DNA of 37,440 nucleotides from Clostridia bacterium (GTDB lineage: Bacteria > Bacillota > Clostridia > Christensenellales > Aristaeellaceae). Position 1 is the first letter of the stretch, and the number at the start of each line of letters is the position of its first letter. The notes below the pieces were generated by a model. The model ran no database searches, was not told where the DNA came from, and saw nothing but the letters and a program-made list of their open reading frames with translations. The position numbers and the translations under genes are program-made. Location: contig JAFQQT010000049.1 of NCBI GenBank assembly GCA_017410455.1, positions 1 through 37,440 of the forward strand. Reading direction: 5' to 3'. Shown here one piece after another: positions 14,199 through 37,440 of the stretch.

Positions 14199-14217
14199 TT
14201 CGTCAGATCCTCCTTTC

Positions 14218-15690: not shown

Positions 15691-15702
15691 GGTCGTTCCT
15701 CC

Positions 15703-17169
15703 TTACAGCATCAGCGCGGCGGACAGCTGCGTGAACAGCTCCGTCAGCATGCCCGGGAACGCGCCCAGCAGCACGCTCAGCACAGCCAGGATCATCAGCG
15801 GCACCAGCATGCAGTAGGGGACGTCGTTCTTCTCCACATGCTCACCCTTGAAGAAGCCGTTGCTGATGATGGGCATCAGGTAGCCGGCCGTCAGCAGGGC
15901 GGAAACGAGCAGCACCACCGGGCCCAGCCAGGTCAGGAACTCCGGCACGCCGCCGGCATTCAGGCTGCCCTGCGCCAGATACCACTTGCTGATGAAGCCC
16001 ATGCAGGGCGGGATGCCGATCAGGCCGAGGCTGGCCACGGTGAAGCAGCCCATGGTGACGGGCATCTGGCGGCCGATGCCTTCCAGATCGCGCACGTCGG
16101 TCTTTTCAGTCTTCAGGATGATGGCGCCGGCGGACATGAACAGTGTGTCCTTGACCAGGGAGTGGCAGATGACGTGCAGCAGCGCGCCGATGAAGCCCTG
16201 GGGGGTCAGCGTGGACAGGCCGAAGAGGATGTAGCTCACCTGGGACACGGAGGACCAGGCCAGGCGGCGCTTGAGGTGGTTCTCGCGCAGCGCCAGCAGG
16301 GAACCGGTGAACACCGTCAGCAGAGCCAGGGACATGAAGGCCGTCTGAACCCAGGTGCCACGCAGGAAGTCAACGCCCAGGTAGCAGAAGAGCAGACGCA
16401 TCACGCCCAGCACGCCGGCCTTGGTGATCACGCCGGAGAGCACGGCGGAAGCAGGGGAGGGAGCGGCCGGGTGCGCCGTGGGCAGCCAGCCGTGCAGCGG
16501 GAACAGACCCGCCTTGGCGCCAAAGCCCACCAGCATCAGCAGCGCGAAGGTGAGCACGAAGCCCTCCTTGCCCGCGATCTTTTCTGCGTTGAGCACGCCG
16601 CCGGCGGTGAAGGAGAAGCTGTCCACACAGGGGCTGAGGACGAACACGCCCAGCAGCACCAGCGACGCGCCCAGCACCGAGTAGATCAGGTACTTCAGGC
16701 CCGCAGCCACGGCTTCCTTCTTGCCCGAATGCATCACCATGGGCATGGTCAGCAGGGTCATCGCCTCAAAGAACATGTAGAAGGTGATGATGCTGCCGGA
16801 GAAGCACAGGCCCATCAGGATGCCAAGGCTGATGAGGTAGAGCGCGTAGTAGCGCTGCTCCTTGCCCTCGTGGGCCATGTAGTGGAAGGAGTACAGGCCT
16901 GCCACCGCCCACACGAAGGCCATCACGCAGGCGAAGATCTTGCCCAGCGTGTCTGCGTGCAGGAAGACGGGGAGGCTGTCGGAAAGGGTGAAGAGCGTCA
17001 GCGTCAGGGACTCCTGCAGCATGACGGGGATCAGCAGGCCCACGGTGATCACCAGCACCGCAATGGTCAGCGCCGTGCGGGGGAGTTTCTTGTCTGTTGC
17101 GGGGACGAGCAGCAGCACAAGGCCCGCCAGAACCGGTACCAGGACCGGAAGAAGAAGCAGGAACGACAT
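15703..17169 (-). CDS. MrpD-like antiporter subunit
   Basis: A 488-residue membrane protein with about 14 segments, proton-conducting antiporter family. The ion-path residues are Glu135 (MFFEAMTLL), Lys219 (GFGAKAGLFPLHGWLP), Lys250 (VITKAG), His336 and Lys340 (ICHSLVKDTLF) and Lys395 (GFISKWYLA). The loop TAHPAAPSPASAVLSG is the family signature before TM8. It lies 23 bases after the upstream gene, with AAGGAGG before the ATG. It and the two genes either side are the duplicated core of the operon; they differ enough that they are old paralogues, not recent copies. Confidence 0.88.
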   Translation of the reverse strand: MSFLLLLPVLVPVLAGLVLLLVPATDKKLPRTALTIAVLVITVGLLIPVMLQESLTLTLFTLSDSLPVFLHADTLGKIFACVMAFVWAVAGLYSFHYMAHEGKEQRYYALYLISLGILMGLCFSGSIITFYMFFEAMTLLTMPMVMHSGKKEAVAAGLKYLIYSVLGASLVLLGVFVLSPCVDSFSFTAGGVLNAEKIAGKEGFVLTFALLMLVGFGAKAGLFPLHGWLPTAHPAAPSPASAVLSGVITKAGVLGVMRLLFCYLGVDFLRGTWVQTAFMSLALLTVFTGSLLALRENHLKRRLAWSSVSQVSYILFGLSTLTPQGFIGALLHVICHSLVKDTLFMSAGAIILKTEKTDVRDLEGIGRQMPVTMGCFTVASLGLIGIPPCMGFISKWYLAQGSLNAGGVPEFLTWLGPVVLLVSALLTAGYLMPIISNGFFKGEHVEKNDVPYCMLVPLMILAVLSVLLGAFPGMLTELFTQLSAALML

Positions 17170-17192
17170 GGTTTTGCCTCCTTAGTGGTTGA

Positions 17193-18707
17193 TTAACCGA
17201 ACATGCCCAGACCGGCGGTGATCATGTTCACGACCGTCTGCGAGAAAATGCCCAGGGTGATGTTGATCAGTGCCAGCAGCACCAGCGCCGCATTGAAGCA
17301 GAAGCCGCGCTGCCCCTTCTCGACGGGGTAGGACGCGCCGTCAAGGGGCTTGCGGTAGAGCGTGATGACCGTGCGCAGGAAATACATGGTGTTGAACATG
17401 GTGGAGATGGCGAGGGTCACCAGCACGATGCTGGCCTTCACCGGGCTCAGGGCGATGCCGGCCAGGGCCAGGTTCAGCTTGCTGACAAAGCCGCCCAGGA
17501 AGGGGAAGCCCACCATGGACAGTGCGCCGATGGTGAAGGCCACGCCCGCGATGGGGCTGCGGTAGCCCGCGCCGCGCAGGTCGCGGAAGAGCTTCGAGTT
17601 GCCGCTGGCATCCGCCAGGCCGCCCGCCGCCAGGAACAGCATGCTCTTGCACACCGCGTGGCTGAAGAGGTGGAACATGGCGGCCATCATGCCGGCCTCG
17701 GTGCCCATGGCCATGCCCAGGTAGATGTAACCGATCTGCGCCACGGAAGAGAAGGCGATCATGCGGCGCACGTCGTTCTGGCGCAGCGCGGAGAGGGAGC
17801 CCATGATCATGCCTGCGATGGCGAAGACGAACAGCACGTCGTCAATGCCGGTGGCGGCGATCACATCCACGCCGATCACGCGGTACATGATCTTCACCAG
17901 CAGGAAGATGTAGCCCTTGCTGACCAGGCTGGAAAGCACCGCCTGAGAGGTGGGGGTGGAGTAGCCATAGGCGTCCGGCACCCAGGTGTGGAAGGGGAAC
18001 AGGGCGCTCTTGATGGCCAGACCGATGACGAAGAGCGCGATGACCACCGTCAGGGGCTGCGCGTATTCGCCCGTGGCGGCGATCTGCGCGACCTGCCCGC
18101 GGATGGACTCCATCAGCAGGTGGCCGGTCAGGTCGTAGAGGATCACGATGCCCAGCAGGAACAGACCCGAGCCGATCAGGTTCATGATCATGTAGCGCGT
18201 GGCGGCCACCAGTGTGCGGCCACGCTTGCGGATGGCAATCAGCGCGCAGGCGGCCAGGGTCATGATCTCCAGGAACACATAGGAGGTGAACAGGTCGTTG
18301 GTGTACACCTGCGCCATGAGCGCGGCGGTCAGCAACAACAGGATGACGTAGTAGAGATTCTGCTTGTTGCCATCGATGTGCTCATCGAGCTTCTTCATGC
18401 CGCCCATCAGGGACAGGAGCATGATGATGCTGAAGAACAGGGCCGTGAGGGCCTCCAGTGCACCGGCGCGGATCTCGTTGCCGATGGGCGCGTAGTAGTG
18501 GCCCATGGGGAACACATAGCTTTCAGCGCCCAGCAGGTACTGGGCGGAGATGACGCCCGACAGCACGGTGACGATCGTCAGTACCGCCATCGCCCACCAG
18601 CGGGCCAGGCGGGGCTTCATCACGCTGGTGAAGGCCGCAGAGGCCAGGGGCAGGATGATGCACGCAAAGGGGATGTTCTGCCAGAGGGCGTAGTGCAGCT
18701 CCATCAT
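17193..18707 (-). CDS. MrpD/MbhH/NuoN-like antiporter subunit
   Basis: A 504-residue membrane protein at the MbhH/MrpD position of the operon, directly after the MrpC gene, as in archaeal mbh clusters. Ion-path residues: Glu147 (FLEIMTLA), Lys233 (GLAIKSALFPFHTWVPDAY), Lys264 (LVSKGY), His350 and Lys354 (LFSHAVCKSMLF), Lys410 (GGFVSKLNLA). The TM7 loop VPDAYGYSTPTSQ is NuoN/MrpD-like. The start at 18707 (Met-Met) is chosen because AAGGAGGGC lies seven to eight bases upstream; the gene overlaps the mrpC stop by four bases. Confidence 0.9.
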   Translation of the reverse strand: MMELHYALWQNIPFACIILPLASAAFTSVMKPRLARWWAMAVLTIVTVLSGVISAQYLLGAESYVFPMGHYYAPIGNEIRAGALEALTALFFSIIMLLSLMGGMKKLDEHIDGNKQNLYYVILLLLTAALMAQVYTNDLFTSYVFLEIMTLAACALIAIRKRGRTLVAATRYMIMNLIGSGLFLLGIVILYDLTGHLLMESIRGQVAQIAATGEYAQPLTVVIALFVIGLAIKSALFPFHTWVPDAYGYSTPTSQAVLSSLVSKGYIFLLVKIMYRVIGVDVIAATGIDDVLFVFAIAGMIMGSLSALRQNDVRRMIAFSSVAQIGYIYLGMAMGTEAGMMAAMFHLFSHAVCKSMLFLAAGGLADASGNSKLFRDLRGAGYRSPIAGVAFTIGALSMVGFPFLGGFVSKLNLALAGIALSPVKASIVLVTLAISTMFNTMYFLRTVITLYRKPLDGASYPVEKGQRGFCFNAALVLLALINITLGIFSQTVVNMITAGLGMFG

Positions 18708-19075
18708 TCCTCGCCCTCCTTTCTGCAAAGGGCGGTGATCTCGTCGATATCCAGGGTGTGATAGCGGCGGTAGAGGCGGATGGTCAGCGACAGCATGACC
18801 GCCGTGACGGACACGGACACCACGATGCCCGTCAGCACCAGGCCTGCCGGGATGGGGTTGATGTAGGCTTCCACCGTCTGCACGCCGTCCACCACGATGG
18901 GGGCGGTGCGGCCTTCGATGTAGCCCTTGGCGGCCAGGAAGAGGAAGATGGCGTTATCCATGATGGAGAAGCCGATGATCTTCTTGATCATGTTCTTGTG
19001 CAGCAGCAGCGTGGTAAAGCCGATGCCGAAGAGCACCATGGCTGCCAGCTCCACATAGTTCTGCAGAAAATCCAT
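18704..19075 (-). CDS. MrpC/MbhG/NuoK-like antiporter subunit C
   Basis: A 123-residue protein with three membrane segments (about 8-25, 30-48, 77-100), the NuoK/MrpC layout. The segment GFTTLLLHKNMIKKIIGFSIMDNAI is the family signature; the conserved helix after it carries the small residues of MrpC. The charged tail RRYHTLDIDEITALC extends into the cytoplasm. It begins one base after the upstream gene's stop, with AAGGGGGAT inside that gene, and ends in a four-base overlap with the next. In Mrp and Mbh complexes this subunit packs between MrpB/MbhF and MrpD/MbhH. Confidence 0.9.
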   Translation of the reverse strand: MDFLQNYVELAAMVLFGIGFTTLLLHKNMIKKIIGFSIMDNAIFLFLAAKGYIEGRTAPIVVDGVQTVEAYINPIPAGLVLTGIVVSVSVTAVMLSLTIRLYRRYHTLDIDEITALCRKEGEE

Positions 19076-19076
19076 G

Positions 19077-20096
19077 TTACATATCCCCCTTTCGGAAGAG
19101 GGTGTAGAAGGCATACATCGTGCAGCAGACCACCAGGCCCACGGCGATGTTCAGGTAGGGGATGAGGCCGGCGGAGAAGAGCATGCCCGGGGTGCCGGGG
19201 CTGAAGATGCTGGGCAGATGGTTCGCGCCGGTGAAGAAGGAGTAAGCCTTGGAGCAGGCATAGAAGGCCAGCGCCATGAGGCTGACGATCTGGAAGGTCC
19301 TGAAGGTGAAGAAGCGCTCGGTCTTCCTGAAGCCGAAGGCGTTCAGGTACAGGATGAGGCCTGCGCCCATGATGGCGCCGCCGGAGAAGCCGCCGCCGGG
19401 GCTGATGTGGCCGTTCATGACCACATAGATGCCAAAGAGCAGGATCAGCGGCACCAGCAGGTTCGCCTGGTGCTGCAGGATCATGTCGTGCTTGGGCTCG
19501 TACAGGCGGTCGTCCGCCTCGGCTTCCAGCATCTCCGTGGTGGGCTTGCCGTCCCTGGAGGGGGCCAGGCGCAGCAGCACCAGCACCGTCACCGCTGCGA
19601 TGAACAGCACGTTGGATTCGCCCAGGGTGTCGAAGGCGCGATAATCCAGGATCATGCCGGCAACGATGTTGACCGCACCGGTCTCGGCCTGGCCCTGGGT
19701 GATGTAATGGGCGGAAACTTCGTTGTTGACGGGGTTATCGGGGTCGCCGTAGGGGGGCAGGTTGGCCGCGGTGTTCAGCAGCAGGGCGATGATGCCCACA
19801 CACATCACCACGGATGCGACGATGTAAACCCAGCGCATGAGCCGGCTGCCCTTGGTGGAGGCCCACTGGTGGAGGCTGCTGTACATGCGCTGCTCGCGCT
19901 CCAGGGCGGCGTGGCGGCGCTCCTCCAGCGCATGCTCCTGCGTGGCGTGGTGATGCTCGCTGTCCACGAGGTGGTCGCGGCTGTGGGCGTCCATCTCGTC
20001 CGTCATGGCGTCATCCAGCGCGGTGGAGCCGTTCTCCAGCCAGTGCATGAGCCGGCCGAACCAGCTCGTTTCATAATCAGGCCTGATTTTCGCCAT
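19077..20096 (-). CDS. Fused MbhE-MrpB (MbhE/F) subunit with a His/Glu-rich N-terminal extension
   Basis: A 339-residue protein joining two modules that are separate genes in archaeal mbh operons. The MbhE-like part (about 85-180) has the signature YITQGQAETGAVNIVAGMIL and DYRAFDTLGE; the MrpB-like part (about 205-335) has the hallmark GHISPGGGFSGGAIMGAG at 229-246. Before them are about 85 mostly charged residues, including SEHHHATQEHALEERRHAA at 46-64, not found in standard members. The start at 20096 follows AAGGAGGAGG inside the upstream gene, giving a 20-base overlap. The charged extension is predicted to be cytoplasmic and could bind metal or another subunit. Confidence 0.86.
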   Translation of the reverse strand: MAKIRPDYETSWFGRLMHWLENGSTALDDAMTDEMDAHSRDHLVDSEHHHATQEHALEERRHAALEREQRMYSSLHQWASTKGSRLMRWVYIVASVVMCVGIIALLLNTAANLPPYGDPDNPVNNEVSAHYITQGQAETGAVNIVAGMILDYRAFDTLGESNVLFIAAVTVLVLLRLAPSRDGKPTTEMLEAEADDRLYEPKHDMILQHQANLLVPLILLFGIYVVMNGHISPGGGFSGGAIMGAGLILYLNAFGFRKTERFFTFRTFQIVSLMALAFYACSKAYSFFTGANHLPSIFSPGTPGMLFSAGLIPYLNIAVGLVVCCTMYAFYTLFRKGDM

Positions 20097-20379
20097 CGCT
20101 GATTGCCTCCTCCTTCCTGGATTCCTTTTCGGACGCCTTCTGGATGTCAATGGCGTGGATCTTCTTGAGGGTCACGAAGAGCAGCAGGCTCGTGATGCCC
20201 GCGCCCACGGCGGCCTCAGTGATGCCCAGGTCGGGGCTTTCCAGCAGGATCCAGATGACCGCCATGGCCAGCGACTGGCTCATGAAGATGACAAGGGCGG
20301 TCAGCAGATCCTTTGTCAGGGACACGCTGATGGCGCAGATGATCACGAAGATCAGCAGGATGATGCCCAGGAATTCCAT
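20077..20379 (-). CDS. MbhD-like (DUF4040) antiporter subunit
   Basis: A 100-residue protein with three membrane segments and the MbhD/DUF4040 signature LAMAVIWILLESPDLGITEAAVG (residues about 38-60), whose acidic residues in ESPDLG and TEAAVG are conserved in MbhD and the carboxy-terminal part of MrpA. In Mrp and Mbh complexes this module carries part of the proposed sodium path. It starts at 20379 (MEFLGI) one base after the mrpG stop; a longer in-frame reading is discarded because the extra residues are very basic and have no ribosome binding site. A charged tail (KASEKESRKEE) follows the last membrane segment. Confidence 0.87.
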   Translation of the reverse strand: MEFLGIILLIFVIICAISVSLTKDLLTALVIFMSQSLAMAVIWILLESPDLGITEAAVGAGITSLLLFVTLKKIHAIDIQKASEKESRKEEAISDGENQA

Positions 20380-20380
20380 G

Positions 20381-20776
20381 TTACTGCGCCTCCTCTTGCG
20401 TGTCGTCAGCGGGGGTGGTGGTAGTTTCGGGGACCTTCTCCTGCTCGACGTAGTCCTGGTCGAGAACATCGGCGTCCCGGGACAGCTCGTCGTTGATGGT
20501 CACTTCCAGCCGGCCGATCAGGTGGCCAGCAACGGGGCTTGTCAACCACAGGAAGGCGATGACCACCAGCATCTTCAGCGATGCGACGGTAAAGCCGGTG
20601 GCGACGATCACGCCCAGGAGCATCAGCAGGATGCCCACCGTGTCCAGCAGGGCGGCGGCATGGACGCGGCTGAGGGCATAGCGGAACTTATACACGCCCA
20701 CCACGCCCGAGAGCAGGCAGAACAGGCCCGCCAGCGTCAGCGCGGCGGAAATGACGAAACGGATGATATCAAGCAT
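20381..20776 (-). CDS. MrpG/MbhC-like antiporter subunit G
   Basis: A 131-residue protein with three membrane segments at about 5-28, 38-62 and 66-86. The conserved MrpG stretch is GVVGVYKFRYALSRVHAAAL followed by DTVGILLMLLG; the Arg/His-containing loop RVHAAA.DT is the family hallmark. Beyond residue 90 it has an acidic, Thr-rich tail of about 40 residues (DELSRDADVLDQDYVEQEKV) longer than in many MrpG. The first eight bases overlap the mrpF end. It is a structural subunit, one of the E-F-G trio. Confidence 0.9.
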   Translation of the reverse strand: MLDIIRFVISAALTLAGLFCLLSGVVGVYKFRYALSRVHAAALLDTVGILLMLLGVIVATGFTVASLKMLVVIAFLWLTSPVAGHLIGRLEVTINDELSRDADVLDQDYVEQEKVPETTTTPADDTQEEAQ

Positions 20777-21080
20777 CTTGCTGCCCCTCCTCTCTCTGGC
20801 GGCGCTTCTCGCGGTAAATGCCCATGTACACCTTCGTCAGCAGCACCACGGCCAGGAAGGAGAGCATCGTGTAGATCATGGCGATATCCACCAGCCAGCC
20901 CTCGCCCATCATGAAGGAGAGGATGCAGATGGAGATGACGATGAGCGTGCCCATCATGTTCACGGCGATGACGCGGTCTGCGATGCGCGGCCCGCGGATG
21001 GCGCGGATCAGGCACGCCAGCAGCAGCACGCCGATGACGATCAGCGCGCCTGTGAAGAGAATGTTGTATGCCTCAGTCAT
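20769..21080 (-). CDS. MrpF/MbhB-like antiporter subunit F
   Basis: A 103-residue protein with three membrane segments at about 9-26, 40-58 and 62-83. The MrpF signature is IRAIRGPRIADRVIAVNMMGT at 25-45 (the conserved GP..ADR..A.N) followed by a segment with a buried acidic residue (VDIAMIYTMLSFLAVV). The ends are basic (YREKRRQREEGQQDA). It overlaps the mrpE end and the mrpG start, eight bases each. Together with E and G it forms the membrane bundle that packs against the MrpB and MrpC subunits. Confidence 0.92.
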   Translation of the reverse strand: MTEAYNILFTGALIVIGVLLLACLIRAIRGPRIADRVIAVNMMGTLIVISICILSFMMGEGWLVDIAMIYTMLSFLAVVLLTKVYMGIYREKRRQREEGQQDA

Positions 21081-21558
21081 GCCCGGCTGCCTCCTTTCCG
21101 GCGCCTTCCAGCTTCATCACGCGGTCCTCCATGTCGAAGCCGTCCCGGCCCATGTCGAAGGAGGCGTCCAGGCAGTGGATGAGGAACTCGTCCTCCTGCA
21201 CGTCGATGGTGATGGTGCCGGGCGTCATGGTGATGGAGTTGGCCAGCACCACCTTGCCCGCGTCGGTGCGCAGCTTCGTGCGGAAGCTGGTCACCTCCGG
21301 CTCGATCACCAGCGTCGGCGACCAGATCAGCTTCATCACCCCGAATGCGCTCTTGAACACCTCGCCCACCAGGTACACAAAGTACCCGGCAATGCGGGGG
21401 AGGCGGCAGGCGATCTGCCACTCCTTTTTCGGGGAATACCCCATGAATGCACACATGAATGCGTAGAGCGCCGCGCACACGATCAGGCCCACGATGGCGA
21501 TCTCCACCGTCCACCGACCGTTGAGCAGCACCCAGAAACCAAACAGCAGGAAATACAT
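21073..21558 (-). CDS. MrpE/MbhA-like antiporter subunit E (first gene of operon)
   Basis: A 161-residue subunit opening the operon. It has two or three membrane segments at the start (MYFLLFGFWVLLNGRWTVEIAIVGLIVCAAL), then the MrpE pattern of a longer helix-rich region (PRIAGYFVYLVGEVFKSAFGVMKLIW). A cytoplasmic domain follows with the family core LANSITMTPGTITID (about residues 105-119) and DEFLIHCLDA. The start at 21558 is preferred because GGGAGG lies eight bases upstream; the longer reading from 21594 has no such site. The gene order E-F-G-MbhD-MbhE/B-C-D equals archaeal mbhA-H. Confidence 0.92.
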   Translation of the reverse strand: MYFLLFGFWVLLNGRWTVEIAIVGLIVCAALYAFMCAFMGYSPKKEWQIACRLPRIAGYFVYLVGEVFKSAFGVMKLIWSPTLVIEPEVTSFRTKLRTDAGKVVLANSITMTPGTITIDVQEDEFLIHCLDASFDMGRDGFDMEDRVMKLEGAGKEAAGHD

Positions 21559-21611
21559 GTGAAATGCCTCCCGATTTTCTTCCTTGTCCGGCACGATACG
21601 CGCCGCATGGT

Positions 21612-29634: not shown

Positions 29635-29991
29635 TGCCATCCAGATGGCGGTGGCGGCGGCCATGTCGCCCTCGTGGGTGATGCTCAGCAGCACCGACCC
29701 GCCGAAGGCCGCGGCTTTGCCCGTGAGGGTTGCCAGGGGCTGCCCCAGGGGCGTGTGGGTGATGACCACGTCGGTAAAGGCGACGGACATGCCCGTGCCC
29801 AGGGCCTTCAAAACGGCCTCCTTGGCGGCGAAGAGCCCGGCCATGGTTTGCGCGGCGGTGACGCCCTTGCTGCGGAAGTAGGCCTCCTCCGCCTCGGTGA
29901 ACATGCGGCGCAGCGGCCGCCCGCTGTCCAGCAGCGCCTGCATGCGCGGGATGCTGCACAGGTCGAGCCCCAGACCACGAATCTCACACAT
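29632..29991 (-). CDS. acpS: Holo-[acyl-carrier-protein] synthase
   Basis: AcpS transfers 4'-phosphopantetheine from CoA to the Ser of acyl carrier protein. The 119-residue product has both metal-binding signatures: GLGLDLCSIPR with Asp10, and LFAAKEAVLKALGTG at 53-67 with Glu58 and the family Lys residues. It ends with the conserved strand region SITHEGDMAAATAIW, where most have SISHE or SITH. It overlaps the birA end by eight bases and so shares its transcript. No sign of an alternative Sfp-type function. Confidence 0.95.
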   Translation of the reverse strand: MCEIRGLGLDLCSIPRMQALLDSGRPLRRMFTEAEEAYFRSKGVTAAQTMAGLFAAKEAVLKALGTGMSVAFTDVVITHTPLGQPLATLTGKAAAFGGSVLLSITHEGDMAAATAIWMA

Positions 29992-30784
29992 AGCCCATCA
30001 TCCCCCTGACTGATACGTCGCCCGCCAGCACGCGGCGGACGCTCCCGTCTTCAGCGCGCACCAGCAGCGCGCCGCTATCATCCACGTCCAGCGCGGTTCC
30101 GGCGTAAGTCTCCGCCGGGGCGATCACCTGAACGGCGCTGCCCAGCGTGCAGGAAAAATTGCGGTATGTTTTCAGGAATCCCGGAATATACCCAGATTCA
30201 CACGCGCGGATTGCCTCCTCCAGGTGGTTGAGGTAGGCGGCGATGAGCGCGCTCCGCTCCGGCGGCGGGCAGACTTCCTCCAGGGCAATGGCGCGGTCGG
30301 CCAGCTCCGGCGGGTACGCCTCCCTGCGGACGTTCAGCCCTGTGCCGATGACCACGAACTGCCGCCCATCGGGGGCGAAGCCGGCCTCCAGCAGCACGCC
30401 GCAAACCTTGCGCCCGCAGAGGATCACGTCGTTGGGCCACTTGATGCGGGCGCCGCAGCCGGGCAGGGCGCGCAGGGCCTGCGTCATGGCCACGGCGGCA
30501 CACAGGGTCAGCAGCGGCAGGCGCTCCGGCGGAAGCCCGGGCTGCAGCAGCACGCTCATCCACACGCCCTGCCCTTCGGGCGAAGACCAGCTGCGGTCCA
30601 GGCGGCCGCGCCCGGTGGTCTGCTGCTCGCAGAGGCAGATGGCCTCCCGAAATGTACCTTTTCGGGCGAAATCCTTGAGAACGGTGTTGGTGGAGGCAAG
30701 GGTATGCTCACAGATGACGGCGCCGCGCCCGAGGGTGCGGGTGGTCAGCAGCGGCTGCCAGGCGGCGGGGGACAGGTCGTGCAT
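29984..30784 (-). CDS. birA: Biotin--[acetyl-CoA-carboxylase] ligase without a DNA-binding domain
   Basis: A 266-residue biotin protein ligase that makes biotinyl-AMP and attaches biotin to the carrier lysine of acetyl-CoA carboxylase or other biotin enzymes. The biotin/ATP loop is TTGRGRLDRSWSSPEGQGVWMS (about 56-77), followed by IKWPNDVILCGRKVCGVLLE at 113-132 with the catalytic lysine region and GTGLNV. A small SH3-like carboxy-terminal domain closes the protein. There is no amino-terminal helix-turn-helix, so it should not act as the biotin repressor. The start at 30784 follows AGGAGGTG; longer in-frame readings cross the promoter. Confidence 0.94.
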   Translation of the reverse strand: MHDLSPAAWQPLLTTRTLGRGAVICEHTLASTNTVLKDFARKGTFREAICLCEQQTTGRGRLDRSWSSPEGQGVWMSVLLQPGLPPERLPLLTLCAAVAMTQALRALPGCGARIKWPNDVILCGRKVCGVLLEAGFAPDGRQFVVIGTGLNVRREAYPPELADRAIALEEVCPPPERSALIAAYLNHLEEAIRACESGYIPGFLKTYRNFSCTLGSAVQVIAPAETYAGTALDVDDSGALLVRAEDGSVRRVLAGDVSVRGMMGYV

Positions 30785-30814
30785 GGAAGCACCTCCTGAG
30801 GTTTGTTTCATCCT

Positions 30815-30844
30815 ATTATACCATGCGGACGCCGGGGATGGCAA
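30815..30844 (-). promoter_or_regulatory. Promoter of birA-acpS
   Basis: On the minus strand TTGCCA, 18 bases, TATAAT, about 30 bases before the birA ATG. It diverges from the azlC promoter. Confidence 0.72.
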
Positions 30845-30884
30845 GGCATGCGGCATCGGCGGCTGTACTCCTTGTGTACCGCGC

Positions 30885-30914
30885 TTGCGTGGGCGGTGCC
30901 GGCTGTGGTATGAT
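30885..30914 (+). promoter_or_regulatory. Promoter of azlCD
   Basis: TTGCGT, 18 bases, TATGAT with a TGG extension. It is 30 bases before the azlC start. Confidence 0.55.
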
Positions 30915-30944
30915 GGAGGCAATCTGACGAAAGAGGTTATGTGG

Positions 30945-31637
30945 ATGAAACATGCGCTGAAACCCGCCTTTCTGGCGACGCTGCCGGTGATGACGGGCTA
31001 CCTGGTGCTGGGCTTCGGCTTCGGGCTGGTGCTGCTGGAGGCAGGGGGCAATCTGCCCCTGGCGCTGGCCATGAGCGGCTTCATTTACGCGGGCAGCATG
31101 CAGTATGTGGCCATTGACCTGTTGACCGGCGGTGCAACGCTCCTTTCCGCAGCGCTGATGACGCTGATGGTCAACGCGCGCCACCTGTTCTACGGCGTGT
31201 CGATGCTGGAAAAGTACCGCGATGCGGGCGCGGCGAAGCCCTACCTGATCTTCGCGCTGACGGACGAAACCTACTCCCTGGTCTGCCAGGAGCCGCTGCC
31301 TGTGCCGCAGGAAATCCGCCGGGCTTACTGTCTGCTGGTATCCGCCTTCGATCACCTGTGGTGGGTGCTGGGCACGGCGTTGGGTGCGGCGGCGGGCACG
31401 GTGCTGGCCATCAATACCGAGGGCGTCGACTTCGCGCTGACGGCGCTGTTCGTCACTGTGATGGTGGAGCAGTGGCTGACGGCGGAGGACCGCGTGCCGG
31501 CCCTGATCGGCGTGGGCGCGTCCGTCCTCTGCCTTGTGCTCTTGGGCGCGGCGGATTTCCTCATCCCGGCGATGCTGCTCATCGCCCTGCTGCTGTGCTT
31601 GTACACCAACGGAAGGGCGGTGAAGCGTCATGAATGA
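30945..31637 (+). CDS. azlC: AzlC-family branched-chain amino acid exporter, large subunit
   Basis: A 230-residue polytopic membrane protein, the large partner of AzlCD-type branched-chain amino acid exporters. The family signatures are PVMTGYLVLGFGFGLVLLE near the start, then SGFIYAGSMQYVAI and LMVNARHLFYGVSML, followed by an ALTDETYSL segment. I take the second ATG (MKHALK) because AAAGAGG lies eight bases before it, and only two bases before the ATG at 30939. The last eight bases overlap azlD. Substrate in this organism not shown. Confidence 0.92.
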   Translation: MKHALKPAFLATLPVMTGYLVLGFGFGLVLLEAGGNLPLALAMSGFIYAGSMQYVAIDLLTGGATLLSAALMTLMVNARHLFYGVSMLEKYRDAGAAKPYLIFALTDETYSLVCQEPLPVPQEIRRAYCLLVSAFDHLWWVLGTALGAAAGTVLAINTEGVDFALTALFVTVMVEQWLTAEDRVPALIGVGASVLCLVLLGAADFLIPAMLLIALLLCLYTNGRAVKRHE

Positions 31638-31956
31638 GATACATGCGTGGCTGATGGTGGCGGTGATTGCCCTGGTGACGGCGGGGCTGCGGTTCCTGCC
31701 GTTCCTGATCTTCAGCGGCGGGCGGAAAACGCCGGCCATTATCGAGCGGCTGGGAGCCGTGCTGCCGGCGGCGATGATGGCCATGCTGGTGGTCTACTGC
31801 CTGAAGGGCACGAGCTTCGCCACGGCGGAAGGCTGGGTTCCGGTGCTGATTGGCGTGGCGGTCACCGCGGGGCTGCATGTGTGGAAGCGTAATACCCTGC
31901 TGAGCATTGTGGGCGGCACGGTGTGCTACATGCTGCTGGTGCAGGTGGTTTTCTGA
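31630..31956 (+). CDS. azlD: AzlD-family branched-chain amino acid exporter, small subunit
   Basis: A 108-residue partner of AzlC with four membrane segments. The family pattern is LVTAGLRFLPFLIFSGGRKTPAIIERLGAVLPAAMMAML, which includes the conserved Pro and the RK.P motif after the second helix; the tail VGGTVCYMLLVQVVF is typical. It overlaps azlC by eight bases, so the two are made together. An ECF-type promoter for the next genes starts seven bases after its stop, with no terminator between. Confidence 0.92.
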   Translation: MNEIHAWLMVAVIALVTAGLRFLPFLIFSGGRKTPAIIERLGAVLPAAMMAMLVVYCLKGTSFATAEGWVPVLIGVAVTAGLHVWKRNTLLSIVGGTVCYMLLVQVVF

Positions 31957-31962
31957 CAAAAA

Positions 31963-31989
31963 TGAAACGAAAATGGCTCCTGCTGCGTA
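31963..31989 (+). promoter_or_regulatory. ECF-sigma-type promoter, copy 1
   Basis: TGAAAC, 17 bases, CGTA, matching the SigW-like ECF consensus. It lies 22 bases before the gene at 32012. The same boxes and spacing recur at 32455-32481. Confidence 0.7.
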
Positions 31990-32011
31990 CATATAGTCAG
32001 GAGGGATAAAT

Positions 32012-32434
32012 ATGACGATGCAACGACTGAAATGGATGGTGGTGCCTCTGGCGTACTCGGTGCTGATGGTGCTGAGTTTCTTTGCGAGCCCTGCTGGCGT
32101 GGGGGTCATGGCCTGCGGCTTCAGTGCGCCGGTGATGATCCCGCTGGTGGTGGCGCTGGGGAGCGTGGAGAAAATTGGCGTCGGCTGGAGGATGTATGTC
32201 GGCCTCGGGCTGACGCTTGTGCAGGCGGCGGGCGTGATCGCCGCACCCGCGCTGGCGGCCCGCCGGCAGTACTGGCTGTTCCTGGCGCTGCAGGGCGTGG
32301 GGATGGTCTGCCGTATCGCCGTGTGTACGCAGCTGTGGGGCGGGGACTTCGTCACGTCCGTGTGGGGCTGCGTGGTGCACGGCGTGCTGCTGCTGGCGGC
32401 GGCGCTGATCTGCCGGAAGCAGCGGGCAGCCTGA
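32012..32434 (+). CDS. Small four-helix membrane protein, member 1 of a trio
   Basis: A 140-residue hydrophobic protein with about four membrane segments (9-25, 29-48, 58-80, 113-133) and a basic end (CRKQRAA). No enzymatic motif was seen. Its layout, a basic start with a first helix of similar design (LKWMVVPLAYSVLMVLSF), resembles the two following genes (QWLILLYTVLTVASV and SGWALGYSALYILTP), so I treat them as a loose family. The start follows AGGAGG at seven bases. It is the first gene behind ECF-type promoter 1. Confidence 0.72.
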   Translation: MTMQRLKWMVVPLAYSVLMVLSFFASPAGVGVMACGFSAPVMIPLVVALGSVEKIGVGWRMYVGLGLTLVQAAGVIAAPALAARRQYWLFLALQGVGMVCRIAVCTQLWGGDFVTSVWGCVVHGVLLLAAALICRKQRAA

Positions 32435-32454
32435 TCCGGAATCCACGTGCGATG

Positions 32455-32481
32455 TGAAACGCTTCTGGCCTGATGTACGTA
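32455..32481 (+). promoter_or_regulatory. ECF-sigma-type promoter, copy 2
   Basis: TGAAAC, 17 bases, CGTA, the same boxes and spacing as copy 1. The flanks also match partly (TGGC near the middle, TATA after the -10, then TCA and AGGAGG). It drives the gene at 32504 and probably the next. Confidence 0.7.
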
Positions 32482-32503
32482 TATACTCACAGGAGGAATG
32501 CCT

Positions 32504-33004
32504 ATGAAGCACAGAACGAAGCAATGGCTGATCCTGCTGTACACGGTGCTGACGGTGGCGAGTGTGGCGCTCTGCCTGAGCCCGTGGACGTGGAATGCCG
32601 GGCTGTTCGGACTGGTGTGGCCGGAGCTGCTGACCATTACGTTCATTGCCGGATGGGAGGAGCTGACCGTGCCGGGCGTGATCACCACCTTTGTGCTGGC
32701 CGCGGGGATGCTGCTGCACCTGGCGGCGCCGGTGTGCGGCTTTTTCCGGATGTACTGGCCCTTCAAGGCGCTGCTGGGCGTGAAGGCGGTGCTGAGCCTG
32801 GCGGCGTTCCTGCTGCTGCCGGGATGGGTGTTCGGGCTGTTCCTGCTGCACGGCGGGCTGTTCGTGTTGGCGACGATCTTTTTCCGGCGCGAAGGGATAG
32901 AGGCTGCATCGGAAGGGGAGCATGGCGAATATGTCCCCGAGGAGAAATGCCGGATTCCGTCGACGGGCCTGCGCATGCCCGGCGACGGCTTCCCGGACGG
33001 CTGA
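32504..33004 (+). CDS. Small membrane protein, member 2 of a trio, with acidic tail
   Basis: A 166-residue protein with four membrane segments in the first 125 residues and a cytoplasmic tail of about 40 residues (FRREGIEAASEGEHGEYVPEE, then a Gly/Pro-rich end). Nothing recognised in the tail. Compared with member 1 it shares only the general design and the promoter. The start at 32504 has AGGAGG seven bases upstream; the ATG at 32498 is one base from that site and is too close. The next gene starts 12 bases after the stop with its own GAGGAGG. Confidence 0.72.
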   Translation: MKHRTKQWLILLYTVLTVASVALCLSPWTWNAGLFGLVWPELLTITFIAGWEELTVPGVITTFVLAAGMLLHLAAPVCGFFRMYWPFKALLGVKAVLSLAAFLLLPGWVFGLFLLHGGLFVLATIFFRREGIEAASEGEHGEYVPEEKCRIPSTGLRMPGDGFPDG

Positions 33005-33016
33005 GGAGGTGAGCCC

Positions 33017-33457
33017 ATGACAAGAAGGCAGAAATCCGGCTGGGCGCTGGGGTATTCGGCACTCTATATCCTGACGCCGTTGGCGTATCTCTTCTTCCAT
33101 GGGAATGCGCTGCTGATCCTGCCGGGATCATCGGTCTTAACGGGTGTGATTTTTATCGGGTTCTCGGAGATCCCTGGGCTGAAGGACGTCACGACGGTGG
33201 CTGTGCTGGCGATGCTGGCCGGGCTGGTGATCGCGCCGGTGTGCGCGGCCTTCCGGCGGTATAGGATGCTGCACGCGCTGATGGCGCTGGATGTTGTGCT
33301 GCATGCGCTGATGATCGCCCATGGCCTTATGGAGGGGGACAGCGAGGGGACGCTGGTCTGGCTGGTTCCGGGGACGATCGTTTCCATCGCTGTGCTGGCT
33401 GTGACGGCGTATGTACTGCGTCGCCCGGAACCGCATGGCGCGGAAAAATCCGCCTGA
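33017..33457 (+). CDS. Small membrane protein, member 3 of a trio
   Basis: A 146-residue protein with four membrane segments (about 10-28, 32-52, 60-78, 110-136), separated by an Arg-rich inner loop (FRRYRMLHALM) where members 1 and 2 have RRQYWLFLAL and FRMYWPFKAL. That shared [FR]R.Y.....[AL]L pattern in the loop supports common ancestry of all three. No promoter was seen in the 12-base gap, so it belongs to the second ECF-type transcript. No terminator is visible before the proS promoter. Confidence 0.72.
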   Translation: MTRRQKSGWALGYSALYILTPLAYLFFHGNALLILPGSSVLTGVIFIGFSEIPGLKDVTTVAVLAMLAGLVIAPVCAAFRRYRMLHALMALDVVLHALMIAHGLMEGDSEGTLVWLVPGTIVSIAVLAVTAYVLRRPEPHGAEKSA

Positions 33458-33462
33458 ACCCC

Positions 33463-33491
33463 TTGCAAATCCTCCGCCGGTGATGTATAAT
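33463..33491 (+). promoter_or_regulatory. Promoter of proS / T-box leader
   Basis: TTGCAA, 17 bases, TATAAT. Transcription would start about 33498, at the base of the T-box stem I. Confidence 0.75.
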
Positions 33492-33497
33492 GTCCGC

Positions 33498-33723
33498 ATC
33501 GGCTATGAAGGACTTGATCCGCCCGGGAAAGTCCCAGCGAGCGCACGGTTGGTGGGAGGTGCGCACTGAAATGGGCGGACGCACCCGGTCCGGAGCTGCG
33601 GCCAATCCCCGCCGGTTCGTCCCCGTTACGGATATGTTGAGAGAAGCGGCCAGTCCGCTTAAGCAAGGTGGTACCGCGAAGTTATTTCACTTCGTCCCTG
33701 CAGAATCAGGGGCGGAGTTTTTC
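33498..33723 (+). promoter_or_regulatory. T-box riboswitch, proline-specific, before proS
   Basis: Uncharged tRNA-Pro would be sensed here and allow proS transcription. Stem I: GGAC (33510) with GTCC (33588), TCCGCCC (33518) with GGGCGGA (33573), and distal GCGCAC with GTGCGC around the AGCGAG and GGTGGGAG loops. The unpaired 3' side between the lower helices is CGCACCCG (33580-33587); CCC or CCG in it is a Pro codon, but I cannot decide which. The conserved T-box core AAGGTGGTACCGCG is at 33665-33678, with TGGT able to pair with ACCA. The terminator stem CTTCGTCCCTG/CAGGGGCGGAG then TTTTT is at 33690-33722. Confidence 0.9.
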
Positions 33724-33756
33724 TATTTCCGCCCGGAAAACGAAGGAGGAACCCTC

Positions 33757-35484
33757 ATGAAGCTCAAGAACCTCGTCTCCAAGCGCTACAAGGAGACCCC
33801 TGCCGATTGCCAGATCGCGTCCCAGGCGCTGATGATGCGCGGCGGCTACATCAAGCCCGTCGGCAACGGCATCTACACCCTGTTCCCCGTCACCAAGCGC
33901 ATCACCTCCAAGATCGAGAAGATCATCCGCGAGGAGATGAACCGCATCGACGGCCAGGAGCTGATGTTCCCGGTCGCCATGCCCGCCTCCATCTGGCGCG
34001 AGTCCGGCCGCTATGACGCGATCGGCTCCGAGCTCCTGCGCTTCAAGGATCGCGGCGATCAGGACATGGTGCTGGGCATGACCCACGAGGAAGCCTCCGT
34101 CCACTTCGTCCGCGACGTGGCCGACTCCTACACCCAGTACCCCTTCATGATCTACCAGATCCAGACCAAGTTCCGCGACGAGCCCCGCTGCCGCGGCGGC
34201 CTGATCCGCGTGCGCGAGTTCACCATGAAGGACGCCTACTCCTTCCACACCTCCCAGGAGGATCTGGAGCGCTACTACCAGATCTGCTACGACGCCTACA
34301 ACCGCATCTTCGCCCGCGCGGGCGTGCCCGAGGTGGTGGCGGTCGCGTCCGACAGCGGCATGATGGGCGGCAAGGTCTCCCACGAGTACATGCTGCTGAC
34401 CCCCGTGGGCGAGGACACCATCGTCCTGTGCCACGACTGCGATTACCGCGCCAACATGGAGGCCGCGCCCTGCATCGTCAGCAACGAGGCGGGCGAAATC
34501 GCCGAGCTGGTGAAGGTGGAGACCCCCAATGTGAAGACCATCGAGGAGCTGTGCGCGTTCCTGAACGTCCGCGCCGACCGCACCTGCAAGGCCGTGGTCT
34601 ATCAGGAGAACCTGACGGACAAGTATGTCGTGGTGTTCATGCGCGGCGATCTGGAGCTGAACGAGACGAAGCTCCGCAACCACCTCAAGGCCGAAATTCA
34701 TGCGGCCGAGCTGACGGAAACGTCCCCCCTGTGCGCGGGCTTCATCGGCCCGGTGGGCATCAGCAAGGACGTGCGCGTGGTCTTCGATGCGAGCCTCAAG
34801 GGCATCGAGAACCTGGTCTGCGGCGCGAACGAGACGGATCACCACATGACCGGCCTGAACATCGCCCGCGACGTGGGCAATGTGGAGTACATCGACGTGG
34901 CCAAGGCCTACGACGGCGGCATCTGCCCGATCTGCGGCAAGCCCAGCGTCTACACCTCCCGCGGCATTGAGGTGGGCAACATCTTCCAGCTGGGCACCAA
35001 GTACACCCAGAGTATGGACATGACCTATGTCGCCCAGGACGGCAGCCTGCAGCACCCCATCATGGGCTGCTACGGCATCGGCGTGGGCCGTCTGGCCGCT
35101 TCCGTCTGCGAAGCGCACCGCGATGATTACGGCCCCATCTGGCCCATCTCCATCGCGCCCTGGCATGTGCATCTGTGCTCCATGCGCGCCGACAACGAGG
35201 AAGTCGCCGCCATGTCCCAGAAGATTTATGACGAGCTGACTGCCAAGGGCGTCGAGGTCATCTGGGATGACCGTCCTGTCTCTGCCGGCGTCATGTTCGC
35301 CGACGCTGACCTGTTCGGTGTGCCCGTGCGCGTGATCGTCAGCCCCAAGGGCCTCAAAAATGGCACCATCGAGATCAGCGCCCGCGACAAGTCCATGAAG
35401 GAGATCAAGCCCATCGACGAGGCGGTGGATTTCGTGGTGGACTACGTCAAGGCTGAGCTGGAGAAGCTGGAGTGCCGCCTGTAA
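33757..35484 (+). CDS. proS: Prolyl-tRNA synthetase (bacterial type with editing insertion)
   Basis: ProS attaches proline to tRNA-Pro. The 575-residue product is the bacterial type: class II core with motif 2 FRDEPRCRGGLIRVREFTMKDAYSF (139-163) and motif 3 GCYGIGVGRL (437-446). Between motifs 2 and 3 lies the INS editing domain (about 230-390, with TCKAVVYQE and GFIGPVGI) that removes mischarged Ala-tRNA. An anticodon-binding domain closes the protein. The start follows GGAGGA eight bases upstream. Regulation is by the T-box. A CPICG motif (389-393) sits at the end of the insertion. Confidence 0.98.
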   Translation: MKLKNLVSKRYKETPADCQIASQALMMRGGYIKPVGNGIYTLFPVTKRITSKIEKIIREEMNRIDGQELMFPVAMPASIWRESGRYDAIGSELLRFKDRGDQDMVLGMTHEEASVHFVRDVADSYTQYPFMIYQIQTKFRDEPRCRGGLIRVREFTMKDAYSFHTSQEDLERYYQICYDAYNRIFARAGVPEVVAVASDSGMMGGKVSHEYMLLTPVGEDTIVLCHDCDYRANMEAAPCIVSNEAGEIAELVKVETPNVKTIEELCAFLNVRADRTCKAVVYQENLTDKYVVVFMRGDLELNETKLRNHLKAEIHAAELTETSPLCAGFIGPVGISKDVRVVFDASLKGIENLVCGANETDHHMTGLNIARDVGNVEYIDVAKAYDGGICPICGKPSVYTSRGIEVGNIFQLGTKYTQSMDMTYVAQDGSLQHPIMGCYGIGVGRLAASVCEAHRDDYGPIWPISIAPWHVHLCSMRADNEEVAAMSQKIYDELTAKGVEVIWDDRPVSAGVMFADADLFGVPVRVIVSPKGLKNGTIEISARDKSMKEIKPIDEAVDFVVDYVKAELEKLECRL

Positions 35485-35660
35485 GGAGCAAAAGAATGGG
35501 TCAAGGGGCGATGCCCCTTGCGCGGGTGCAGGGGCGGCGTTAGCCCCTGCCCGCCGGAGGCCCCCGCGCCGCAGCGCAAAGCCCCTCGACGCCTTTGACG
35601 AATCTCCGATTCGTCAAACAGTCCACGCAACTCCAAAGGAATAGCCAGCAAGGTACACCA
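35485..35660. repeat. Cluster of three perfect hairpins, REP-like intergenic element
   Basis: CAAGGGGC/GCCCCTTG (35502-35520), GCAGGGGC/GCCCCTGC (35528-35550) and an 11-bp stem TTTGACGAATC/GATTCGTCAAA with TCC loop (35594-35618) follow each other. Part of it (TAGCCCCTGCCCGCCGGAG, 35541-35559) recurs at 1174-1192 with two changes. No gene. The first could be a weak proS terminator without a T-run. Confidence 0.55.
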
Positions 35661-35675
35661 ATCAAATCACCAACA

Positions 35676-35711
35676 CGGCGGATGCCCATCAAGCGGGACG
35701 TCCGCCGCTTT
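35676..35711 (+). terminator. Possible terminator before the anchored-protein gene
   Basis: CGGCGGA pairs with TCCGCCG over a loop of 18 bases, followed by CTTTGAT. The T-run is short, so confidence is modest. Confidence 0.45.
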
Positions 35712-35743
35712 GATATACACCTGTAACAATTCGCCGCCGCAGC

Positions 35744-35772
35744 TTGACAGGCAACTGACGTTGTGCGAAAAT
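35744..35772 (+). promoter_or_regulatory. Probable promoter of the anchored-protein gene
   Basis: Perfect TTGACA, 17 bases, GAAAAT (four of six positions of the consensus). It lies 26 bases before the ATG. Confidence 0.55.
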
Positions 35773-35797
35773 ACAGCCAGAAAGGAGGCGGTAAACC

Positions 35798-36349
35798 ATG
35801 AAAAAACGCAAGCTGAACGGCTGGATGCTCGCGTTTATTGCGCTGGCGGCGACGTTGCTGGTGCTCCTTTACATCCAGATGCGCGCATCGGAAACGGATA
35901 CCTACACCGTGAGACTCTATCGGACATCCTGGAACGAGGAGCGTGGCTATGAGGTTACGCGCAGCATCGCGCCCCGTCCGGAGGCGGCCTGGCGCTCTGA
36001 AATGCACGAGGCTCCACCTGTGCCGGTGCGCTTTGACGGCGCGGTACTCCGCCAGGGTGCAGGATACGGCCCGACCTCGCTGGAAGGTGCTTTCGCGGCG
36101 GAGGACGTGAACGAGCTGTGCGGCCGTGAGGTGCTGAGGGAGGACTGGGTCTTTTCCTGGGGATTGTATTTCACCAACGACTGGTATCACATCAATGCTT
36201 ATGTGGAGGTCAGGCTGCCGGAGGAAGAGAGCGGTCTGGCGGAAGCAACCATGACGGTGTACCATGAGGGCTATTCTGCCCCGGCTTGCGTCATGACGTG
36301 GACGGGGGAAGTCGGCGAGCCGATCCGCTTCGGCGCGGAGGAGCTGTGA
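35798..36349 (+). CDS. Membrane-anchored protein of unknown function
   Basis: A 183-residue protein with a short basic start (MKKRKLNG), one membrane segment at about 10-28 (MLAFIALAATLLVLLYIQM) and an extracellular part of about 150 residues. That part is rich in Glu, Tyr and Trp with likely beta strands (YTVRLYRTSW, WYHINAYVEVRLP, ATMTVYHEGY). No motif recognised. AAAGGAGGCGG precedes the ATG. It stands alone with a probable promoter; the rpsO promoter follows. A signal anchor is likelier than a cleaved signal peptide, as no clear cut site follows the hydrophobic core. Confidence 0.7.
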   Translation: MKKRKLNGWMLAFIALAATLLVLLYIQMRASETDTYTVRLYRTSWNEERGYEVTRSIAPRPEAAWRSEMHEAPPVPVRFDGAVLRQGAGYGPTSLEGAFAAEDVNELCGREVLREDWVFSWGLYFTNDWYHINAYVEVRLPEEESGLAEATMTVYHEGYSAPACVMTWTGEVGEPIRFGAEEL

Positions 36350-36406
36350 GCAGCCCGATTCTGCAACTTTTCCGCCAAATCCGCGAAAAATATCCGCAAA
36401 AGCCCA

Positions 36407-36435
36407 TTTACAAACGGCGGAAAACGTGTTAGAAT
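36407..36435 (+). promoter_or_regulatory. Promoter of rpsO
   Basis: TTTACA, 17 bases, TAGAAT. It gives a leader of about 114 bases before the rpsO start. Confidence 0.7.
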
Positions 36436-36441
36436 AGTCGA

Positions 36442-36555
36442 TGGGCTTGATGAACCTCCTGCGCAGGCTGCCGATCACTCCGACGGCGCACTTCGTGGGA
36501 TGGCGATTGCCCGAGAATAAGCGGCACAGCCGCAAAAAAATGGAGGATGAAACCC
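36442..36555 (+). promoter_or_regulatory. Long structured rpsO leader, candidate S15 autoregulatory RNA
   Basis: The stretch from the predicted transcript start to rpsO holds no gene and is full of short pairings: GGC-GATT-GCC near 36502 and GCGGC-ACA-GCCGC at 36521-36533, just before an A-run and GGAGG. Leaders of rpsO that bind S15 are known in many bacteria; assignment here is inferred from position and structure, not from a matched consensus. Confidence 0.5.
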
Positions 36556-36810
36556 ATGACCAAGTCCGAGATCATTGCCGCCTTCGCTCAGCATGAGGGC
36601 GACACCGGTTCCCCCGAGGTGCAGGTCGCGCTGCTGACCTACCGCATCAACCACCTGAACGAGCACCTGAAGCACAACAAGAAGGACCACCACTCCAACC
36701 GTGGTCTGCTGCTGATGGTCGGCAAGCGTCGTGGTCTGCTGGAGTACCTCAAGAAGACCGACATCGAGCGCTACCGTGCGCTGATCGCCAAGCTGAACCT
36801 GCGTAAGTAA
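36556..36810 (+). CDS. rpsO: 30S ribosomal protein S15
   Basis: S15 binds the central domain of 16S rRNA early in assembly and, in many bacteria, its own leader. The product is 84 residues, a little shorter than the usual 88-89 because the start is trimmed. Signatures are [30 protein letters not shown] and [21 protein letters not shown]. The start at 36556 is preferred to an ATG nine bases earlier that directly abuts the GGAGG. rpsO and pnp are next to each other as in most Bacillota, here separated by a terminator. Confidence 0.97.
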
Positions 36811-36855
36811 TCGCAGCGCCCGGCCTGACGACCGACTGGCGGTTTGCATAGCCAA

Positions 36856-36890
36856 GGCCGCCGCAGGGACTCGTTCTCTACGGCGGCTTT
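36856..36890 (+). terminator. Terminator after rpsO
   Basis: GCCGCCG and CGGCGGC enclose an inner stem AGGGA/TCTCT with a CTCG-type loop, followed by TTTGCTT. It lies about 45 bases after the rpsO stop and could limit read-through into pnp. Confidence 0.78.
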
Positions 36891-37002
36891 GCTTGTAAAC
36901 CGGAACTGACGGGGAGGCGGCACACCGTTTTTTCTGTCAGCGGGAATTCCTGTTTTCTGCCGCGTTGTGCGGATGTGAATCGTCCAGGGGATGTTGTCCC
37001 TT

Positions 37003-37024
37003 GAAAATCCTGCACAGGGTTTTC
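37003..37024 (+). other. Hairpin in the pnp leader
   Basis: GAAAATCCTG pairs with CAGGGTTTTC (one G-U) in the region between the rpsO terminator and pnp, about 70 bases before the pnp start. The gap 36891-37095 holds no gene. A role in PNPase autoregulation, as with the RNase III site of the E. coli leader, is possible but only inferred. Confidence 0.4.
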
Positions 37025-37095
37025 ATATGACAGCATCCTGTGGACCGGATAGGGCAGGGGCAAGGGCCGCTGCCTGTGAAGAAGGAGAGAGAGAA

Positions 37096-37440
37096 ATGGA
37101 TTACCGTTCCTACAAAATGGACCTGGCGGGCCTCCCGCTGGAGCTGGAATTCGGCAAGTACTGCGAGCAGGCTGCCGGTTCCGTCTGGGTGCACCTGGGC
37201 GACACGGTCGTGATGGTCAACGCCACCATGAGCCCCACCGCCCGCCCCGGCGTTGACTTCTTCCCTCTGGCGGTTGACGTGGAGGAGAAGCAGTACGCGG
37301 CCGGCAAGATCCCCGGCGGCTTCATCAAGCGCGAGGGCCGTCCCACCGAGAAGGCGACCCTGACCTGCCGCCTGATCGACCGCCCCCTGCGCCCCCTGTT
37401 CCCCAAGGGCATGCGCAACGACGTGCAGGTGGTTGCCACC
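37096..37440 (+). CDS. pnp: Polyribonucleotide nucleotidyltransferase PNPase, N-terminal part (partial)
   Basis: PNPase degrades RNA from the 3' end using phosphate. The window ends after 115 codons, within the first RNase PH domain. The visible part has the family pattern [22 protein letters not shown], then [18 protein letters not shown] and [42 protein letters not shown], the signature that includes the substrate-binding Arg-rich loop. AAGGAG lies eight bases before the ATG. The second PH domain, KH and S1 domains lie outside the window. A leader hairpin may regulate it. Confidence 0.97.

Follow-up and report, generated by a model that had tools for sequence, protein, structure and literature searches.

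A candidate ECF-sigma regulon with two promoters before a trio of paralogous membrane protein genes in an uncultured Clostridia bacterium

Two matching promoter-like sites in front of three small membrane protein genes of a Clostridia bacterium (Christensenellales; Aristaeellaceae) are, with a probability of roughly 0.85, promoters of one ECF sigma factor, which would serve the first gene (T1), the following pair (T2-T3) and about ten others after an envelope signal. In the proposed mechanism, the signal would free the sigma factor from a membrane-bound anti-sigma factor, and the holoenzyme would use promoter 1 for T1 and promoter 2 for T2-T3. The same holoenzyme would start about ten more promoters, mostly located before genes for secreted or membrane proteins. 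The window, i.e. the whole stretch of DNA that was analysed, is 37,440 nucleotides long and lies on contig C36 of the bacterium's own genome (G000; 3.3 Mb, 93 contigs, 92% complete). The following features, all on the plus strand, surround the two sites:

30936..31637, plus strand: azlC (branched-chain amino acid export), upstream of the trio; PF03591, E 3.6e-40; start placed by eye
31630..31956, plus strand: azlD, ending 6 bases ahead of promoter 1; PF05437, E 4.3e-24
31963..31993, plus strand: predicted ECF-type promoter 1; -35 TGAAAC at 31963-31968, 17-base spacer, -10 CGTACATA at 31986-31993; regulon consensus with one mismatch
32012..32434, plus strand: T1, multi-helix membrane protein of 140 aa, paralogue of T2 and T3
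32455..32485, plus strand: predicted ECF-type promoter 2; -35 TGAAAC at 32455-32460, 17-base spacer, -10 CGTATATA at 32478-32485; exact regulon consensus
32504..33004, plus strand: T2, multi-helix membrane protein of 166 aa, within the listed frame 32498-33004
33017..33457, plus strand: T3, multi-helix membrane protein of 146 aa, starting 12 bases past T2
33463..33491, plus strand: sigma-A-like promoter of the T-box/proS unit, TTGCAA-N17-TATAAT, marking the end of the trio
33496..33702, plus strand: T-box leader before proS; RF00230 at E 1.8e-17, sub-threshold with 78 bits where gathering requires 93

The sequence-only reading had placed TGAAAC-N17-CGTA at 31963-31989 and at 32455-32481, and both copies were recovered there with identical boxes and 17-base spacers. 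Two matches to TGAAAC-N15..18-CGTA in the window compare with a mean of 0.02 expected, and none of 100 shuffles reached two. An AAC-containing -35 box and a CGT-containing -10 box at fixed spacing, which characterize ECF promoters, are both present at the G000 sites. At either promoter the ATG lies 49 bases from the initial T of TGAAAC, and a GGAGG stretch lies ahead of the ATG of both T1 and T2. ECF-dependent transcription starts a few bases past the -10, 7-9 after CGTA, and would be expected to do so here. T3 follows T2 without room for a promoter, as had been noticed earlier: the 12 bases between them are free of the motif, and no promoter of its own was seen for T3. A sigma-A-like site was sought between azlD and T3 in G000 and none was found. 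The three proteins had been described as small four-helix proteins; they are indeed predicted to be multi-helix membrane proteins, but the count of four is not firm, as hydropathy (read by eye) suggests four to five helices in each, with charges that suggest both ends to be inside.

Elsewhere in the window, a long run of NADH-dehydrogenase-like membrane subunits was observed by eye on the minus strand at 12087-21594, with several antiporter-like ones in a row, resembling a multi-subunit Na+/H+ antiporter of the Mrp type (named by eye). The frame at 35798-36349, between proS and an rpsO-like gene, encodes 183 aa with a single hydrophobic stretch at the N-terminus, and this protein had no match in Pfam or NCBIfam. 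At gathering level, Rfam returned nothing over 29900-37440.

Across the whole G000 assembly, TGAAAC-N15..18-CGTA was found 17 times, versus 14 times in the backwards control, so that the short pattern by itself is uninformative. The spacer was exactly N17 in 13 of the 17 matches (binomial 1.2e-5 if each of the four spacings is equally likely), and these 13 sites also agree beyond the boxes: a G follows TGAAAC in 12 of them, and T, A, T and A follow CGTA in 10, 11, 12 and 12, respectively. The longer pattern TGAAAC-N17-CGTATATA had nine exact copies in G000 and none in the control; with up to two mismatches, the counts were 20 and 6. The enrichment of the short pattern alone is unconvincing; our conviction rests on the spacing and on the longer -10. 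Each of the 13 N17 sites is followed, within 132 bases, by a same-strand open frame with a Shine-Dalgarno-like stretch, as scored by a simple script rather than a gene finder, the second offered frame being taken for L014 and L017.

Forty genomes were compared: the bacterium's own, 17 of the genus, six of the family and 16 of the order. Exact copies of TGAAAC-N17-CGTATATA were present in G000 (nine), G010 (nine), G009 (one) and G023 (one), of which G010 belongs to the same genus as G000; the other 36 genomes had none, and the control was zero in all 40. When up to two mismatches were allowed, G010 had 17 copies versus four in its control, while counts near the controls were obtained for G009 (9/6), G011 (3/10), G002 (9/8), G016 (8/9), G005 (6/3), G012 (4/6) and G023 (7/7). 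Three pairs of sites from G000 and G010 lie before homologous genes, namely L012/L098 (proteins 71% identical), L010/L100 (37%) and T2 with its G010 relative. Gapped alignment showed both boxes to be identical in all three pairs, with spacers matching at 6, 8 and 5 of 17 positions and upstream flanks agreeing at 31, 43 and 27 of 60. The identity of the boxes is partly a matter of selection, since the motif was used to find both members of each pair, and the conservation of the upstream flank in one of them (L010/L100) makes the footprint argument slightly weaker. By sequence, the stronger point is that homologous genes occur in both site lists. L010 and L100, at 37% identity, are homologues of unproven orthology. 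The ECF-promoter part of the sequence-only reading is well supported by these patterns, together with a G010 copy of the motif ahead of an ECF sigma gene (see below).

A LytTR-like response regulator gene of G010 also carries the exact motif (it scores 122.7 bits where the LytR model requires 375), and its look-alike in G009 has a copy with one mismatch. Beyond the 40 genomes, named relatives were collected through ProS, keeping the best 80 out of a larger number of matches, and the nearest named records among these best 80 include gut MAGs from sheep, goat and water-deer. In the 54 relatives scanned, with flanks of at most 6 kb and some much shorter, TGAAAC-N17-CGTA was found in none, and tblastn gave no match to azlC, azlD, the trio or the trio homologues; 20 of them were re-searched with ProS as positive control.

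Among the first genes behind the 13 N17 sites, eight encode secreted-looking proteins (L002, L005, L006, L010, L012, L014, L015 and L017; N-termini read by eye), four encode multi-helix membrane proteins (T1, T2, L009 and L011) and one (L003) belongs to neither group. A Pfam search with ten of the eleven first genes outside the window (L010 left out) identified one polysaccharide deacetylase and one DUF975 protein, and returned nothing for the other eight at E 0.01. A regulon with mostly secreted or membrane products, as predicted here, fits a role in envelope homeostasis. The sequence-only reading had suggested an envelope-stress module, and such a role for the trio and the regulon is plausible from these products and from the usual roles of ECF sigma factors.

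The sequence-only reading had noticed no sigma factor in the window, which agrees with two Pfam genome searches whose sigma-domain matches all lie off contig C36. It had further proposed to look for an ECF sigma gene autoregulated by the same motif. Such a gene was found in G010, where on contig C99 the exact motif lies 22 bases upstream of the TTG start of an ECF sigma gene (81.4 bits on the sigma70-ECF model, cut-off 42.9); a longer frame with a GTG start would run over the motif. Its neighbour on the same contig is:

L260, 9368-10084 (G010, contig C99): anti-sigma-like protein, overlapping the end of the sigma gene; short N-terminal part and one hydrophobic stretch

By sequence, the sigma gene and the overlapping frame are arranged like an autoregulated ECF/anti-sigma pair, and both the overlap and the autoregulatory-looking site are as in ECF sigma/membrane anti-sigma pairs generally. 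The short inside part, the single helix and the long outside part of the neighbour likewise resemble membrane anti-sigmas generally. In contrast to such pairs, its outer part is a long TPTATPSP-type repeat, cut at the contig end, and a search with its first 159 residues gave no NCBIfam match at E 0.01.

A motif common to the regulon and to the sigma factor's own gene is thus seen in G010 but was not found in G000, whose assembly is without a close relative of the C99 protein: the best match has 47% identity, and 59 fetched sigma loci of G000 (186 kb, many overlapping) contained no copy of TGAAAC-N17-CGTA. Three further genes of the C99 contig (GNAT, ilvA-like and leuB-like) had no match in G000 either, which fits an assembly gap and equally a real absence; two of these neighbour-gene searches were run without a positive control. 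We consider that the C99 orthologue is probably missing from G000 through an unassembled stretch and would be the sigma factor in question; it may also be really absent, with another ECF sigma acting in its place. A relative with 63% identity occurs in G002, where the motif shows no excess (9 versus 8 in the control). In a tree of 27 ECF proteins, 17 of them from G000, the C99 protein groups with G002 C43 (100/99) and with no G000 protein; G011 C123, G010 C228 and some G000 sigma-like frames were not included in this tree, and 14 of its 24 inner branches are open.

A count by eye gave about 20 ECF-like sigma genes in G000. Many of them have their own compact upstream site near the Shine-Dalgarno stretch, with -10 variants such as CGTCTATA, CGTTATA, CGTCATATA or CGTGTATA, and many sigma loci of the related genomes resemble them in this respect; a set of parallel ECF circuits is possible. 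The sites of the regulon share with those of the other ECF genes of the genus the compact form ending near a Shine-Dalgarno stretch, but differ in the -10, which in the latter is mostly CGTC.., CGTT.. or CGTG.. (by eye) instead of CGTATATA. The motif could be real and yet be used by another ECF sigma factor of G000 with a slightly different preference, for instance that of C52, rather than by a C99 orthologue. The site upstream of C52, TGCAAC-N17-CGTGTATA, is by eye the closest autoregulatory-looking one among the G000 sigma genes. In a weight-matrix scan of the G000 sigma loci C64 scored best (17.8, compared to 32-50 for the 13 training sites, which score high by construction), and the anti-sigma-like neighbour of C64 bears a faint resemblance to the G010 one (E 1.3e-4). 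We regard this alternative as unlikely, though a serious contender, given the motif-free G000 sigma loci, the full motif at the C99 gene of G010 and the targets common to G000 and G010.

The position of the trio directly behind azlC-azlD suggests another explanation, according to which it would mainly belong to this operon and be transcribed by read-through from upstream, the ECF sites being additive and the proteins serving amino-acid export. Promoter 1 begins 6 bases behind azlD, a scan revealed no terminator-like site between the two, and the T2 relative of G010 also lies behind azlD. In G010, however, azlD is followed by a candidate end of transcription:

L109, 1401-1414 (G010): terminator-like hairpin overlapping the azlD end, directly ahead of the ECF-type promoter of the T2 relative

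Moreover, the trio homologue adjoins birA in G002, G016 and G017 and lies before proS in G009; the stretches fetched there showed no match to azlC, and each of these homologues has its own promoter-like site. We therefore consider it improbable that the trio belongs mainly to the azl operon, although some read-through from azlC-azlD may occur.

T1, T2 and T3 share 29-33% identity in alignments, and pairwise BLASTP gave E values of 1e-4, 3e-5 and 1e-5 (single comparisons, those of T2 over 62-73 residues only); judged by this mutual similarity, they are paralogues of one protein family. Searches against Pfam, NCBIfam and PDB sequences gave nothing above cut-off, the sub-threshold matches being chance-like (e.g. 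PF06281 on T3, 15.5 of 25 bits), and four trio homologues likewise had no Pfam match above cut-off. A T1-T3 profile found homologues in six of the 39 other genomes (G002, G009, G010, G011, G016 and G017), all of the same genus; a distribution search over genome contigs with this profile returned no relative. An ECF-type site is present before members of the family in G000, G010 and G009. In G002, G011, G016 and G017 a sigma-A-like site, TTGAC[CG]-N17/18-TAT[CG]AT, is found in front instead, and these four genomes have no exact long motif anywhere; the G011 locus is cut by a contig end. Upstream of the G010 and G009 homologues no sigma-A-like site was detected, which slightly strengthens the case for a promoter swap. 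The seven genomes are related, and the promoter types do not represent seven independent events.

In a tree of seven trio proteins, read as unrooted (the midpoint root serves the drawing alone; the homologues of G011 and G017 are not among the seven; G009 forms a long branch), T1, T2 and the G010 protein stand opposite T3 with the G009, G002 and G016 proteins. The closest G010 relative of T2 has the same promoter at the same 49-base distance to the start. Past the -10, the leaders of T1, T2 and the G010 gene match one another at 14, 16 and 17 of 22 positions, whereas 11 other sites average 7.9 matches and reach 14 at most. From the common distance and the agreement of the leaders, the two promoter-gene units seem to stem from an old tandem duplication. 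The two sites had been presented as independent copies hardly explained by chance. The second half of this statement stands: two look-alike sites arising by chance in short intergenic gaps are scarcely credible, as the near-control count of the short pattern (17 versus 14) is opposed by the spacing bias, by the long pattern in both G000 (9 versus 0) and G010 and by the same sites before homologous genes. Their independence is put in doubt by the tree and the leaders. We tentatively propose, as one possible history, that the trio represents an undescribed, genus-restricted and envelope-protecting family whose control changed among species, from a housekeeping promoter to a dedicated ECF sigma factor or the reverse, followed by a tandem duplication of gene and promoter in the G000 lineage.

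The promoters had been called SigW-type. In the literature, the SigW consensus is given as TGAAACN16,17CGTA (PMC2375139), the SigW regulon of Bacillus subtilis is said to contain many membrane and envelope-stress proteins (PMC3498285), and the AAC and CGT boxes, together with positive autoregulation, count as early hallmarks of ECF sigma factors (PMC8103513). The present regulon is like that of SigW in its -35 (TGAAAC), -10 (CGTA) and spacer (16-17 in SigW; PMC2375139), and in its membrane-rich products (PMC3498285). It differs in the extension of the -10 to CGTATATA, in the spacer of 17 in 13 of 17 matches, and in that no RsiW-type anti-sigma was identified here. The C99 protein was considered as SigW itself and rejected, since its scores on PRK09641 (86 bits, cut-off 209) and TIGR02948 (78.4, cut-off 243.1) are both far under cut-off. 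The label holds for the consensus boxes but not for the sigma factor: the regulon would work like the SigW regulon, and by the sigma-model test is none.

An ECF-sigma regulon is a known kind of system. Searches of the literature, covering titles and abstract openings, found no description of such a regulon or ECF sigma factor in these Clostridia, and both the trio family and this regulon are undescribed as far as these searches reach. The finding would give uncultured gut Clostridia a concrete ECF regulon that can be tested, with a candidate sigma factor, a candidate anti-sigma factor and candidate targets. It would also offer a case of one gene family that is seemingly driven by a housekeeping-type promoter in certain species and by an ECF promoter in others, and proteins of no known family would become a group with a common regulatory cue.
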